Shown one piece after another: positions 23,329 through 28,241 of a DNA stretch of 47,297 bases; positions within the stretch are counted from its first letter, which is position 1; every line of letters begins with the position of its first letter. Source of the stretch: Candidatus Magasanikbacteria bacterium RIFOXYD2_FULL_41_14 (GTDB lineage Bacteria > Patescibacteriota > Patescibacteriia > Magasanikbacterales > GWA2-37-8); assembly GCA_001784475.1 (NCBI GenBank), contig MFRE01000004.1:1-47297 (forward strand), given 5' to 3'. Made by a program: the position numbers and the translations under genes. The notes below the pieces were generated by a model, which worked only from the letters and a program-made list of their open reading frames with translations, made no database searches and was not told the origin of the DNA.

Positions 23329-24363
23329 TTAAAATAAAATTCCTACTAACTTTTTCCAATCCTCCACACTTAATTCCTGCGCTCTAATCGTACGCAACCA
23401 CCCTAATTTCTGCCAAATCGTTTCTAATTGACTTAAGCCAGAATTGCCACCGACTAAGGGAAGTAAATTTTTTATTAAAATTTTGCGACGACTGCTAAAG
23501 CCGGTTTTGACTAATTTAAAAAATTGTTTGGTGTACTTGTCATCCCCGTGGAAACGGGGATCCAGTGTTTCGTCTGTGGCGACTGGATTCCCGCTTTCAC
23601 CCCAAGGGCACTTGTCGCTTTGCTCGGGCGCGCGGGAATGACATATTGGTTTTACCGTAATTTTAATCACTGCCGAATCAACTTTTGGTATGGGATAAAA
23701 AAAATGGCGCGGTACTGGCATGATAATTTCCGGCTCGGCATAATATTGCACTGCCACCGCCAAAACCGACATATCGCCGGGCTTAGCACAAATTCTACTC
23801 GCCACTTCTTTTTGCACCATTAAAGTTAAGGACTCTGGTTTGTTGGCAATATCTTCTAAAAAAAATTTAATTATCGATGAAGTAATTTGATAGGGAATAT
23901 TGGCGACGACTTTGTATGGCCGCTCAACATTTGTCATCCCCGACCCCGTATCACAGTACGGGGCAGGCCCGATCGGGGATCCAGTCGCCACTTTTTCCAC
24001 AACCTCTGGATTCCCGTTTTCACGGGAATGACAAAATAAATCAAAATCTTTTTGATACAAAACATTGCCCCAAATGATTTCTATATTTTTATATTCTTCG
24101 GTTTTTTCCCGCCAATACTTTTCAATTTTCTTTTCAATTTCAAAAGCCACCACTTCTTTTGCTTGTTCTGCTAAAGCAAAAGTTAGCGTGCCAAAACCAG
24201 GCCCCACTTCCACCACGGTGTCGGTTGGCTTAATGTCGGCGGCCGCGACCATCGCTTCAATCGGCTCCAAACTTAACAAATAATTCTGGCCATAGTCTTT
24301 TGACGGCTTCATGCCATATTGCTGGCACAAATTCTGAATTGCTTTCGGCGTAAAAAAGTGCAT
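23329..24363 (-). CDS. rsmA: 16S rRNA (adenine1518/1519-N6)-dimethyltransferase RsmA/KsgA with two repeat-derived insertions
   Basis: DYGQNYLLS, VVEVGPGFGTLTFALAE, VVANIPYQITSSIIKFFLE, PKVDSAVIKI motifs; extra segments CHSRENGNP...GSGMTNVERP and CHSRAPEQSD...DPRFHGDD are repeat-encoded. Confidence 0.93.
   Translation of the reverse strand: MHFFTPKAIQNLCQQYGMKPSKDYGQNYLLSLEPIEAMVAAADIKPTDTVVEVGPGFGTLTFALAEQAKEVVAFEIEKKIEKYWREKTEEYKNIEIIWGNVLYQKDFDLFCHSRENGNPEVVEKVATGSPIGPAPYCDTGSGMTNVERPYKVVANIPYQITSSIIKFFLEDIANKPESLTLMVQKEVASRICAKPGDMSVLAVAVQYYAEPEIIMPVPRHFFYPIPKVDSAVIKITVKPICHSRAPEQSDKCPWGESGNPVATDETLDPRFHGDDKYTKQFFKLVKTGFSSRRKILIKNLLPLVGGNSGLSQLETIWQKLGWLRTIRAQELSVEDWKKLVGILF
23539..23642. 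repeat. Family-1 dispersed repeat insertion in rsmA (3' part)
   Basis: gtcatccccgtggaaacggggatccag...ctggattcccgctttcaccccaagggcacttgtcgctttgctcgggcgcgcgggaatgac. Confidence 0.9.
23933..24032. repeat. Family-1 dispersed repeat insertion in rsmA (middle)
   Basis: gtcatccccgaccccgtatcacagtacggggcaggcccgatcggggatccag...tctggattcccgttttcacgggaatgac. Confidence 0.9.
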
Positions 24364-24475: not shown

Positions 24476-25651
24476 TAAACCAGCATCACTATACCTATTC
24501 CCCGCATTCCACAACAACCACCCCGCGTTCGGATATTTCTCTACCATATCAATTTGAGCACGAATTTTTTCCGCATCATACACTGCTCCCAAATCAAACG
24601 CCTGAAGCCACGGGCGCACTTGCGCGCGGGTGGAAGTGGTGAAAAAATGTTCGCCCAAAGCCATACCATTGGCAATTACTCCCGCTGGATGTTCGGCCGG
24701 ATTATTAAATCCCAAATGTCCGACCGGATAATGCGAAGGATACATCATGGGGCAAATATAATCAACATTATCTCTCGCGTCCAAAATCCGCTGGCCAATA
24801 TTCATATCGTCGTTACCACTTTTTTCCATTGTAAACCCAAACATATCAAACGATGTCCATACCGGCGCGTCTTTTAAACCATCACTCAAAAATTTATAAA
24901 ACTCACTCATAATTTCATATAACGGCCGTTCATCACTATAAGCAATTTGTTTAATCGGGCCATCAGACGGAAAGCGCACGTAATCAAAATTTATTTCATC
25001 AAATCCTAATTCGGCCACCTCTTTGGCAATGGCTAAATTATAATTCCAAACCTCTTTACGCGTCGCGTCCACCCACGATAAACCTTTGTTGTCATACCAT
25101 AACTTGTCCGGCGTAGCCGTAGCGGAGACGGAACCCCCGCTTTTTGATTTGATTGCCCATGCCGGTCGCGCCGCTGCCAAAAACGGATCTTGAAAAACCG
25201 TCTGGCGCGCGATTACATATATATTGTGCTCGTGTAATTTTTTTATGGTTGCCGAAATATCACGCAAACGATTTTCACTCGCTTTGATCTGTTTAACTAA
25301 TGATACTTGTGAAGAATAAAAAATTAAGCCACTATAATCTTTAATATCGATGACAACAGCATTCAGTTCCGTCTTATCGATTAGCTTAATTATCGCATCA
25401 ATTTTAGCCGGATTGCCGGCACTATAAGCAGTTAAATACAGTCCCTTCACAACCCGTGTTGGGGATTTTACACCGACAGGATGAGTAATTTTATCAAACA
25501 CACTCACCGCGCAGTTATTCATTATGCTAATTGTATCGCGCCAATAAATAAATAATGTTCCAGCACAAATTATAGCAAAAATAACAAAAATAAGATTATT
25601 TATAGCACCAGTTGGTCCGGTCATTTTTAATTTTGAATTGTCATTTTCCAT
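24464..25651 (-). CDS. Putative glycoside hydrolase-like protein (DUF4015-type)
   Basis: GLYLTAYSAGNPAKIDAIIKLIDKTELNAVVIDIKDYSGLIFYSS, ELGFDEINFDYVRFPSDG, YICPMMYPSHY; start trimmed to MENDNSK because the longer ORF start comes from repeat DNA. Confidence 0.8.
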   Translation of the reverse strand: MENDNSKLKMTGPTGAINNLIFVIFAIICAGTLFIYWRDTISIMNNCAVSVFDKITHPVGVKSPTRVVKGLYLTAYSAGNPAKIDAIIKLIDKTELNAVVIDIKDYSGLIFYSSQVSLVKQIKASENRLRDISATIKKLHEHNIYVIARQTVFQDPFLAAARPAWAIKSKSGGSVSATATPDKLWYDNKGLSWVDATRKEVWNYNLAIAKEVAELGFDEINFDYVRFPSDGPIKQIAYSDERPLYEIMSEFYKFLSDGLKDAPVWTSFDMFGFTMEKSGNDDMNIGQRILDARDNVDYICPMMYPSHYPVGHLGFNNPAEHPAGVIANGMALGEHFFTTSTRAQVRPWLQAFDLGAVYDAEKIRAQIDMVEKYPNAGWLLWNAGNRYSDAGLKEN

Positions 25652-25685
25652 TTTAATTTTTATGTTTAACGCAGTACTGGCGAGT

Positions 25686-25765
25686 CCCCCTCCTCGCCTC
25701 CCCCTTATCAAGGGGAGGAAACGCGTCGTTCCCCTCCCTTTGTAAAAAAGGGAGGGCGGGGTGGG
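25686..25765. repeat. Family-2 GC-rich repeat pair
   Basis: cccctcctcgcctcccccttatcaaggggagg...cccctccctttgtaaaaaagggagggcggggtggg. Confidence 0.8.
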
Positions 25766-25769
25766 TTCG

Positions 25770-27095
25770 TCAATCTATTTTAACTTCACCCTGTCTCAAA
25801 ATATTTATTGTATTTCCCACGACGCTTACAATCGTTGACGGCAGATTTTTTGGCAAAATTCCCGCGTCCACAATTGCGTCCGGTGCATTGTCAGCATTTT
25901 CAAAAATTTTAATCAGTTCTTGAGAATCATAAATTTCTCCCGCACCCGCTAAATTTGCCGAAGTGGCGACAAGCGGACACCCTAATTTTTTTGTTAAAGA
26001 TTGTAAAAATGAATCGGCACTTACTCTCACGGCGACAGTGCCATCTGGCGCCACGACACCGTTTGCCAATTTCCCCTCCCTTTGCAAAAAGGGGAAGGCG
26101 AGGGTGGGGTCTGATGCGGTCAATTCGCTCTCTCCCCCTTTCAAGGGGGAGATTAAGAGCGGGTCTCGCAATCGCTTATTACATAAATAATAAATATCGT
26201 CCAGAACACCTGATAAATTATTAAAAACATCAACATTATTATATCGTAAAATTTGATAACCATTTTGTTCTAAAAATTCTTTTCGTCTATTATCTTTTAA
26301 GGCATTTTTTTCATCAGAAAAATGAATATCGCCGTCTACTTCAACAATAATTTTAGAATCTGATTGATAAAAATCCGCGATATATGGACCAATACCGTGT
26401 TGTTGTCTAAATTTTAAACCACCTAATTTTTTATCTCTTAAACCATTCCACAAAATCTTTTCTGCCTTGGTTTGATCTTTACGTAAACTTTGACGTAATG
26501 ATTTTGTGCGGAAAAAAGCTGCCAAGCGAAACCCCACCCCCGCCCTCCCCTTTTTGCAAAGGGAGGGGGCATTGCCGTTTCCGCACCCTGAAAGACAAGT
26601 TCGTGCTGCATTGCCGTTTCCGCACCCTGAAAGACAAGTTCGTGCTGCATTGCCGTTTCCTCCCTCTGACAAGGGGGGGGCGAGAAGGGGGGCTCGCGTT
26701 TCACCGTCGCCTTCTCCCCCTGCCAGGGAGGAGATTGAGAGGGGGGCTCGCGTTTCACCGTCGCCTTCTCCCCCTGCCAGGGGGGAGATTGAGAGGGGGG
26801 CTCGCACATCATACTCACCTACCATCGTCAAAGCACCCGGCCAATATTTTTGCGCCAAATTATCTAACGTCGTATTCCACTTTAAATATTTTTTCGCCAT
26901 TTTAATATCCGGCACAACTACAAGCAACGGCTTATCGCCTACCCGCCCCTTAATCGCAAAAATTTTATCCACCGCGGATTGATTCGTAGCGTCACAACCC
27001 AAACCATACGACGTTTCAGTGGGGAAAATAACCACTTTACCAGATTTCACCAAATCAATAATTTGATTTATTTTTTTAGCTTCTACAATATTCAT
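25770..27095 (-). CDS. tsaC: TsaC/Sua5/YrdC threonylcarbamoyl-AMP synthase interrupted in-frame by tandem repeats and a DUF559 nuclease-like domain
   Basis: N-part VVIFPTETSYGLGCDATNQSAVDKIFAIKGR...YWPGALTMV; C-part VAPDGTVAVRVSADSFLQSLTKKLGCPLVATSANLAGAGE; between them repeat peptides and LRKDQTKAEKILWNGLRDKKLGGLKFRQQHGIGPYIADFYQSDSKIIVEVDGDIHF... Confidence 0.92.
   Translation of the reverse strand: MNIVEAKKINQIIDLVKSGKVVIFPTETSYGLGCDATNQSAVDKIFAIKGRVGDKPLLVVVPDIKMAKKYLKWNTTLDNLAQKYWPGALTMVGEYDVRAPLSISPLAGGEGDGETRAPLSISSLAGGEGDGETRAPLLAPPLSEGGNGNAARTCLSGCGNGNAARTCLSGCGNGNAPSLCKKGRAGVGFRLAAFFRTKSLRQSLRKDQTKAEKILWNGLRDKKLGGLKFRQQHGIGPYIADFYQSDSKIIVEVDGDIHFSDEKNALKDNRRKEFLEQNGYQILRYNNVDVFNNLSGVLDDIYYLCNKRLRDPLLISPLKGGESELTASDPTLAFPFLQREGKLANGVVAPDGTVAVRVSADSFLQSLTKKLGCPLVATSANLAGAGEIYDSQELIKIFENADNAPDAIVDAGILPKNLPSTIVSVVGNTINILRQGEVKID
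26073..26110 (+). repeat. Family-2 inverted repeat, left flank of DUF559 segment
   Basis: cccctccctttgcaaaaaggggaaggcgagggtggggt; 36/38 identical to the reverse complement of the right flank. Confidence 0.9.
26131..26168. repeat. Family-2 repeat unit
   Basis: tctcccccttt caagggggagattaagagcgggtctcgc. Confidence 0.75.
26190..26515 (-). other. DUF559 (Vsr/restriction-endonuclease-fold-like) domain within tsaC
   Basis: FRTKSLRQSLRKDQTKAEKILWNGLR...KFRQQHGIGPYIADFYQSDSKIIVEVDGDIHF...RRKEFLEQNGYQILRYNNVDVFNNLSGVLDDIYYLC matches the DUF559 pattern. Confidence 0.88.
26530..26569 (-). repeat. Family-2 inverted repeat, right flank of DUF559 segment
   Basis: accccacccccgccctcccctttttgcaaagggaggggg; inverted relative to 26073..26110. 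Confidence 0.9.
26569..26660. repeat. 39-bp tandem repeat (2 full units + partial)
   Basis: gcattgccgtttccgcaccctgaaagacaagttcgtgct x2 then gcattgccgtttcc; encodes AARTCLSGCGNGN repeats in-frame. Confidence 0.95.
26693..26805. repeat. 54-bp tandem repeat (2 full units + partial)
   Basis: ctcgcgtttcaccgtcgccttctccccctgccaggg(a/g)ggagattgagagggggg x2; encodes APLSIS[PS]LAGGEGDGETR in-frame. Confidence 0.95.
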
Positions 27096-27164
27096 AATAA
27101 TCGCAAATTGTTAATTTCAAATTTCAAAATCACTAATTAGCACTTTGCAATTTAAAATTAGAAA

Positions 27165-28241
27165 TTATCGTTTTAACCACTTTAAATACGCCTCCACCAA
27201 CCCCTCCAAATCCCCTTCTAACACTCCACGGTCATCAGCCGTCTCATAATCCGTGCGCAAATCTTTTACCAGATGATACGGGTGCAACACATATGATCGA
27301 ATTTGATTACCCCATTCGGCGGATTTATATTCTCCGCGCAAATCTTGTTTTTCTTTAGCCAAGCGTTCCAATTCCAAACGGTGCAATTTCGCTTTCAAAA
27401 CTTTCATGGCATTTTCTTTGTTTTGTTGTTGACTGCGTTCATTTTGGCATGACACCGTAATATTGGTCGGCAAATGCACAATCCGCACCGCGCTATAAGT
27501 CGTATTTACCGACTGCCCGCCTTTGCCACCGCTCATAAAGGTGTCAATCCGCAAATCTTTCGGATCAATTTCAACTTCCACATTATCCGGCAATTCCGGT
27601 AAAACTTCCACCAGCGCGAACGAGGTATGACGCATTTTTTCCGCGTCAAACGGCGAAATTCGCACCAGACGATGCACGCCGTGCTCGGATTTTAAATTTC
27701 CAAACGCATACCGACCAGATACCCTAAACATAATGGATTTATAACCGGCCTCGGCGCCACGCGCTTCGTCTAAAATTTCCGCTTTCCATTTTTTATTTTC
27801 ACAAAAACGCGCGTACATGCGAAATAGCATCTCCGCCCAATCTTGCGCTTCGGTTCCGCCGCTACCGGAATGAATTGCCACGATCGCGTTACTGTTATCG
27901 TACGGCCCATTCAAAAGCAAAGACAATTCATATTTTTCAAATTCTTTTTGCAACTCAGTTGTCTGTTTTTCAATTTCCGCTGATAGTGATTCGTCGCCTG
28001 ACTCGGATAACTCCACCAAATCCTTCACGCGTTTTTCCAAATCTTCCCATTTATCAATTTCACTTTTCAAATCCTGATAATCTTGCGAAACGGTTTTGGC
28101 GGTTTTCTGGTCAGCCCAAAAATTAGACGCGTTCATCATTTCGGCCAATTGTGCCATTTTGTTTTTCAAATCTGGCAATTTCAAAAGCGCCATCGCTTCG
28201 GAAATTTTTTGTTGGAGAGTTTTTAATTGTTCTTGAGACAT
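27165..28241 (-). CDS. prfB: Peptide chain release factor 2
   Basis: RF2-type SPF motif (VRISPFDAEKMRHTSFA), GGKGGQSVNTTYSAVRIVHLPT, no internal frameshift; start taken at MSQEQLKTL. Confidence 0.9.
   Translation of the reverse strand: MSQEQLKTLQQKISEAMALLKLPDLKNKMAQLAEMMNASNFWADQKTAKTVSQDYQDLKSEIDKWEDLEKRVKDLVELSESGDESLSAEIEKQTTELQKEFEKYELSLLLNGPYDNSNAIVAIHSGSGGTEAQDWAEMLFRMYARFCENKKWKAEILDEARGAEAGYKSIMFRVSGRYAFGNLKSEHGVHRLVRISPFDAEKMRHTSFALVEVLPELPDNVEVEIDPKDLRIDTFMSGGKGGQSVNTTYSAVRIVHLPTNITVSCQNERSQQQNKENAMKVLKAKLHRLELERLAKEKQDLRGEYKSAEWGNQIRSYVLHPYHLVKDLRTDYETADDRGVLEGDLEGLVEAYLKWLKR

Follow-up and report, generated by a model that had tools for sequence, protein, structure and literature searches.

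An in-frame DUF559 nuclease between hairpin repeats in bacterial tsaC: a candidate non-splicing, homing-type cassette

Background

tsaC is an essential tRNA-modification gene (t6A). Selfish elements known to insert into coding sequences either splice out, as inteins and introns do, or are very short, as are the Rickettsia palindromic elements (RPEs). A first-pass annotation of the window analyzed here, a 47,297-nucleotide stretch of the genome of Candidatus Magasanikbacteria bacterium RIFOXYD2_FULL_41_14 (hereafter G000), described a TsaC/Sua5 sequence split by about 240 residues that contain a DUF559 nuclease domain, with the reading frame kept throughout, and compared the insert to a mobile nuclease cassette that enters an essential gene without disrupting it. 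The presence of a nuclease in the middle of a tRNA-modification protein raises the question of what this insert is, how it could have reached its position, and whether similar inserts occur in other genes and organisms.

In this study, we examined the locus, its counterparts in related genomes and DUF559 genes in several bacterial phyla. Our preferred reading, to which we assign a probability of roughly two in three, is that the insert represents a selfish homing-type cassette, one that preserves the frame and does not splice, composed of a DUF559 nuclease gene between purine/pyrimidine-strand hairpin repeats.

Results and discussion

Anatomy of the interrupted tsaC

The tsaC open reading frame (25770..27095, minus strand) encodes 441 amino acids and has no internal stop codon. 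Pfam matched Sua5_yciO_yrdC as two separate stretches (E 8.9e-45), and DUF559 occupied residues 198-305 (E 3.6e-30), in agreement with the split described initially, and the TsaC equivalog profile TIGR00057 was matched at 144.3 bits (cut-off 123.2), the insert notwithstanding. The N-terminal part (residues 1-95; 26811..27095, minus strand; PF01300 at residues 15-94) extends to the conserved WPGALTMVGEY, where TsaC is broken off, and the protein is picked up again at KLANGVVAPDGTVAVRV. The C-terminal part (residues 342-441, KLANGVV...; 25773..26072, minus strand) corresponds to the second Pfam stretch and has an intact ATSAN motif. With limits set by comparison with uninterrupted tsaC relatives, in which the linker at this position measures 18-26 amino acids, the insert comprises residues 96-341 (26073..26810, minus strand; 738 nt, 246 codons) and occupies a loop that separates two conserved motifs of TsaC.

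An AlphaFold model of the 441-residue chimera, a check proposed in the first-pass annotation, assigned pLDDT values mostly above 90 to the TsaC core (residues 1-95 and 345-441) and of about 90 to DUF559 (about 200-310), with disordered linkers at 101-183 and 320-338 (pLDDT below 50). Both folds are thus predicted to stay intact, tied by disordered linkers. Foldseek of the whole model retrieved Sua5/TsaC structures (Sua5 6f89, E 1.2e-10).

Pfam and NCBIfam scans of the 441-residue frame gave no match to an intein/HINT family, Rfam gave no intron family in 25000-28000 at E values up to 0.1, and the frame is continuous. An intein or intron was considered and dropped for lack of a profile or Rfam match, and the early impression of an insert free of splicing motifs held. 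Elsewhere in the window, in-frame inserts from a different palindromic repeat family (CHSRENGNP... and CHSRAPEQSDKCPWGESGNP...) were noted in rsmA/ksgA (23329..24363, minus strand).

The nuclease domain (26181..26504, minus strand) scored 104.5 bits against the PF04480 profile (curated cut-off 20.6) and belongs to the Vsr/EDxHD type, with the motif DF..EVDGDIH intact. Foldseek of the insert matched NGO0050 (PDB 3hrl; TMt 0.88), the homing endonuclease I-Bth0305I (3r3p; TMt 0.79-0.80, E 4e-4 to 1e-3) and, weakly, Vsr (1vsr). A phmmer search of PDB sequences with DUF559 found the first two as well (3hrl, 7e-13; 3r3p, 0.005), and a DUF559 gene has been placed in the EDxHD homing family (PMC9403480).

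Hairpin repeats in and around the insert

The main inverted repeats were located at 26067-26110, at the 3' junction of the insert, and at 26531-26574. The GC-rich inverted repeats noted at first sight are therefore real, and their length, given as 38 bp, is 44 nt with 91% complementarity. Each arm is itself nearly palindromic, and this main family (core CCCTCCCTTTGCAAAAAGGGGAGGG) flanks DUF559 on both sides in opposite orientation. A second family (core CTCCCCCT..AGGGGGAG) occurs once in the 3' linker (26125-26170) and three times in the 5' linker in gene sense (26653..26806, CTCCCCCTgccaGGGGGGAG type; copies at 26653-26698, 26707-26752 and 26761-26806), where two copies form a 54-nt tandem duplication. 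The 5' linker also contains a 39-nt tandem duplication (26569-26646, 13 codons each). Both duplication lengths are multiples of 3, and together with the second hairpin family the duplications take up the remaining linker length. Downstream of tsaC, the intergenic gap holds one extra copy of each family (25680..25761).

Stop codons in the linkers, counted over six frames, numbered 5 and 7, against averages of 8.5 and 15.3, respectively, for shuffled sequences. Since these counts are above zero and not under the shuffled minimum, the scarcity of stop codons in the linkers is only suggestive.

The main family is dispersed over about a dozen sites in the G000 genome, both tsaC arms included, and its pattern exceeds chance, as it gave 22 strand-matches in its own genome versus 0 for the reversed control. 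Copies without a nuclease were found in frame inside tsaD, miaA, mnmA and the gene for an exported protein (L061, G000:C3:1969; L069, C26:13894; L071, C5:99178; L070, C9:103073), all named from their sequence motifs. In the same-genus sibling G001, tsaD runs without interruption through the point of the G000 hairpin; this genome has a single copy of the main hairpin and no DUF559.

Distribution of the insert among relatives

G001, the single same-genus relative compared, has an uninterrupted tsaC of 203 amino acids (74% TsaC identity), and thus provides the empty site that the first-pass annotation had hoped to find by alignment with siblings. Three further members of the family to which G000 belongs, G006, G010 and G019, have DUF559 in this loop of TsaC as well, each with different hairpin linkers of its own, and G005 retains the first DUF559 residues (SELRKNKTKAEK), the remainder having been lost in frame. 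G015, G002, G008 and others have a tsaC without the insert. Altogether, DUF559 was detected in a tsaC frame in 4 of the 86 genomes of the order (G000, G006, G010 and G019), with no further match in such a frame among these 86, and most DUF559 copies in the order are stand-alone genes. The insert is not a fixed domain of TsaC shared by all close relatives, which the first-pass annotation had named as a contrary outcome, because the sibling site is empty and only these four genomes are occupied. Candidates for a target-site duplication were sought by aligning the empty sites in G001 and, for a DUF559 locus described below, in Shinella; these sites are too diverged to call one.

G000 is a 1.1-Mb draft assembly in 28 contigs, and on that ground the window could be imagined to contain an error of assembly or binning. 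We consider this to have almost no probability: a chimera is excluded because four separate assemblies of independent genomes share the architecture and a fifth retains an in-frame remnant.

The motif DF...E-x-D-G-x-x-H is intact in all four tsaC-borne DUF559 domains, and pN (0.21-0.29) is well under pS (0.58-0.81) in every pair, with synonymous change near saturation. These values indicate that the tsaC-borne nuclease is kept intact and under constraint.

In a TsaC tree built with the insert left out, the grouping of the carriers as one clade was rejected (AU p=0.00026), and at least 4 presence/absence changes are required. The four tsaC-borne copies form one clade in the DUF559 tree (100/99), and the host pairing expected there, G010 with G019, was not rejected on 118 columns (AU p=0.18). 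These last two observations, together with the loss evident in the G005 remnant, are what would be expected of a domain fusion inherited vertically, i.e., one ancient gain of DUF559 in the tsaC of this family that descendant lineages retained or lost, without recent movement at the site. The patchy distribution with its several changes on the host tree argues against such a history, as does the comparison of G000 with G010, in which DUF559 identity (66%) exceeds TsaC identity (62%), the reverse of the trend in the other pairs, which leans toward horizontal movement. Moreover, vertical fusion would offer no account of why these cassettes also occur in many unrelated genes (see below), and we regard it as a possible though rather unlikely explanation. 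For the tsaC site taken by itself, a single gain with losses and homing are both possible.

Two members of another family, G044 and G049 (L079, L080), have a tsaC with two short palindromic inserts and no DUF559, one insert being at the same loop and one within the conserved YW-PG motif. Stand-alone DUF559 genes lie directly downstream of tsaC in G044 (L079:1686-2174) and 1.3 kb upstream of tsaC in G023 (L041/L078), and both belong to branches other than the tsaC-borne clade.

Association of DUF559 genes with hairpins

Hairpins near DUF559 genes were counted when they had strand-biased arms of at least 8 bp that were at least 85% pyrimidine or purine and contained a GGG/CCC run. At 62 stand-alone DUF559 loci of CPR genomes, 100 such hairpins were found at most 150 bp from the domain versus 11 at 400-1300 bp (density ratio 50.6, binomial p 4e-70). 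At least one hairpin was present within 150 bp in 55 of the 62 loci, and hairpins on both sides in 28. The corresponding density ratios were 44 at the four tsaC cassettes, 14 at 15 loci from WOR-1, Saganbacteria, Brocadiaceae and Chitinophagaceae, and 19 at 31 Bacteroidota loci; control loci around tsaC genes without DUF559 had 1 hairpin in a total of 101 kb. The sequence of the flanking hairpins varies between genomes.

Nearby hairpins were also seen at DUF559 copies of Sinorhizobium, Deinococcus, Photobacterium, Neisseria and Azospirillum, and were absent near the E. coli and Pseudanabaena plasmid copies sampled. At the Picosynechococcus copy the sole hairpin was of another type. Of the Bacteroidota long-frame cassettes, about a third had no hairpin within 150 bp under the counting rule given above.

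These data bear on the role of the nuclease. It could be an inert passenger that hitch-hikes between two hairpins moved by other machinery, either a RAYT/Y1 transposase or replication slippage. The hairpins of G000 do occur alone, in frame too, and REP-type repeats elsewhere are linked to RAYT transposases (PMC3116915). However, RAYT is an unlikely mover of these hairpins, since three of the four tsaC carriers (G006, G010 and G019) lack any Y1_Tnp gene. None was found either in G012, G017, G023, G050 or G055, all of which have a hairpin-flanked DUF559. In addition, the DUF559-hairpin link holds over many hairpin sequences and phyla, and the domain is intact and constrained, observations against a passenger, which we judge improbable.

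DUF559 cassettes in other host genes

Similar internal cassettes, likewise in frame and in loops, were recognised by profile in other genes. In the phylum of the window, they were found in Elp3 and riboflavin synthase (RibE). In hsdR of Brocadiaceae and Bacteroidota, DUF559 occurs in frame at three different positions, and in LeuRS at two sites; further hosts are MetH, RecG, HsdM, a PglX-like methyltransferase, a UvrD-like helicase, a type ISP enzyme and a DNA methylase. The cassettes of LeuRS, MetH, RecG, HsdM, the UvrD-like helicase and HsdR are from Bacteroidota and Planctomycetota. DUF559 is also fused N-terminally to RNase HI, HemF, Dxr and AroD, and C-terminally to HutG.

LeuRS is the clearest of these cases. 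Carriers of DUF559 at site 1 (between NWIGKS.. and ..VFTTRPDTI) have none at site 2, and vice versa. DUF559 sequences cluster by host gene and site, not by genome: G192 has one copy in leuS and one in recG, and each clusters with its site-mates from other genomes. This is the pattern of intein/homing-endonuclease alleles, to which vertical inheritance at each site contributes. At site 2, two of the site-1 carriers (L139, L168) have short hairpin-type peptides without DUF559, and the loop that these hairpin-coded peptides occupy is filled by a full cassette in other genomes.

The breadth of hosts also bears on whether TsaC profits from DUF559, for example through nucleic-acid binding or a regulatory role, so that selection on the host retains the domain. 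Conservation of the frame and of DUF559 residues in four lineages could be read in this way. Nevertheless, the domain is missing in the sibling and most relatives, DUF559 copies in the order are mostly stand-alone, and the same cassette resides in functionally unrelated enzymes. A functional fusion is therefore very improbable.

Proposed mechanism and relation to known elements

Returning to the homing-type cassette, its parts are supported to different degrees. Insertion into coding genes is well supported, and it is probable that the cassettes as a class are mobile and in-frame. That DUF559 itself drives the movement we infer with about even confidence. The initial idea of a mobile cassette in an essential gene that stays undisrupted therefore gains support from the empty sibling site, the patchy carriers and the recurrence elsewhere, with the nuclease as its presumed driver. 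The nuclease would cut cassette-free or hairpin-bearing alleles, and repair would copy the cassette into the cut allele, as in the homing of intein and intron endonucleases. The hairpins would provide the cassette ends and the mostly stop-poor, disordered linkers, and could spread alone, in trans, as non-autonomous copies, such as those in tsaD, miaA and mnmA. As nothing would be spliced out, the protein would retain the element as a tethered domain that it tolerates. Purifying constraint on the host gene, which is essential, would preserve the reading frame and hence the nuclease too.

RPEs are in-frame palindromes in conserved coding genes, whose host proteins can remain active (Ogata 2000, reviewed in PMC2229807 and PMC10969869). 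The hairpins described here likewise lie in frame in conserved genes (tsaC, tsaD, miaA, mnmA). RPEs measure about 105-150 bp, and these reviews describe no nuclease in them, whereas the cassette holds a complete folded nuclease domain; repeats of its form, unlike RPEs, are not confined to one genus. By analogy, the cassette may be likened to an RPE plus a nuclease. Its nuclease fold is shared with inteins and intron-borne homing endonucleases of the EDxHD type (I-Bth0305I, PDB 3r3p; PMC3943268), as are recurrent insertion at fixed sites of conserved genes, alleles that group by site, and empty and degenerate alleles; unlike inteins and introns, the cassette is, to judge by sequence, not excised and remains part of the mature protein. 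WHO elements of yeasts (PMC7282813) are also non-splicing, homing-type and aimed at an essential metabolic gene, but replace the FBA1 3' end by means of a duplicated gene fragment, whereas the cassette leaves its host gene whole around it. REP/REPIN-RAYT systems (PMC3116915) similarly have a single nuclease-type gene between palindromic repeats and repeat copies scattered in the genome. RAYT, however, belongs to the HUH tyrosine transposases and REPs lie outside genes, whereas the cassette has a PD-(D/E)XK-like nuclease and its insertions are often intragenic and in frame. Finally, the domain is common to stand-alone DUF559/YcjD-type proteins such as NGO0050 (PDB 3hrl), which are usually annotated as orphan Vsr-like endonucleases, unlinked to repeats or host genes.

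Because in-frame cassettes recur in housekeeping genes across several phyla, they look like an unrecognised family of selfish elements hidden inside proteins. The parts are known, namely DUF559, EDxHD homing nucleases and in-frame Rickettsia palindromes; their combination as a non-splicing in-frame element appears to be new. Our survey, confined to open-access literature, found no prior description of it, so an earlier account elsewhere is possible. The odds seem evenly balanced for the broader proposal of a widespread bacterial mobile-element class, in which DUF559-hairpin cassettes enter conserved coding sequences by homing and persist there in frame, tolerated as an additional domain of an essential protein, the dispersed hairpins (possibly including RIME-like repeats of Sinorhizobium) being non-autonomous derivatives. 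If true, a nuclease cassette that is permanent inside LeuRS, MetH, RecG, TsaC and other proteins would be a third strategy next to splicing out and being very short; it would account for a set of puzzling DUF559 'domain fusions' and provide a candidate mobiliser for orphan palindromic repeats.

In Sinorhizobium sp. C101/K101, DUF559 lies between two direct repeats of about 130 bp, each with two large palindromes (L196:2801-3523, L158), and the matching neighbourhood on a Shinella plasmid has neither DUF559 nor the repeats. These two-palindrome repeats may resemble RIMEs, and we know of no mobiliser for RIME-like repeats; the Sinorhizobium DUF559 is a candidate for one. RIMEs have been described as intergenic sequences whose function is unknown (PMC2573895). 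On a Photobacterium plasmid (L157), two hairpin types are arrayed every 148 bp downstream of DUF559.
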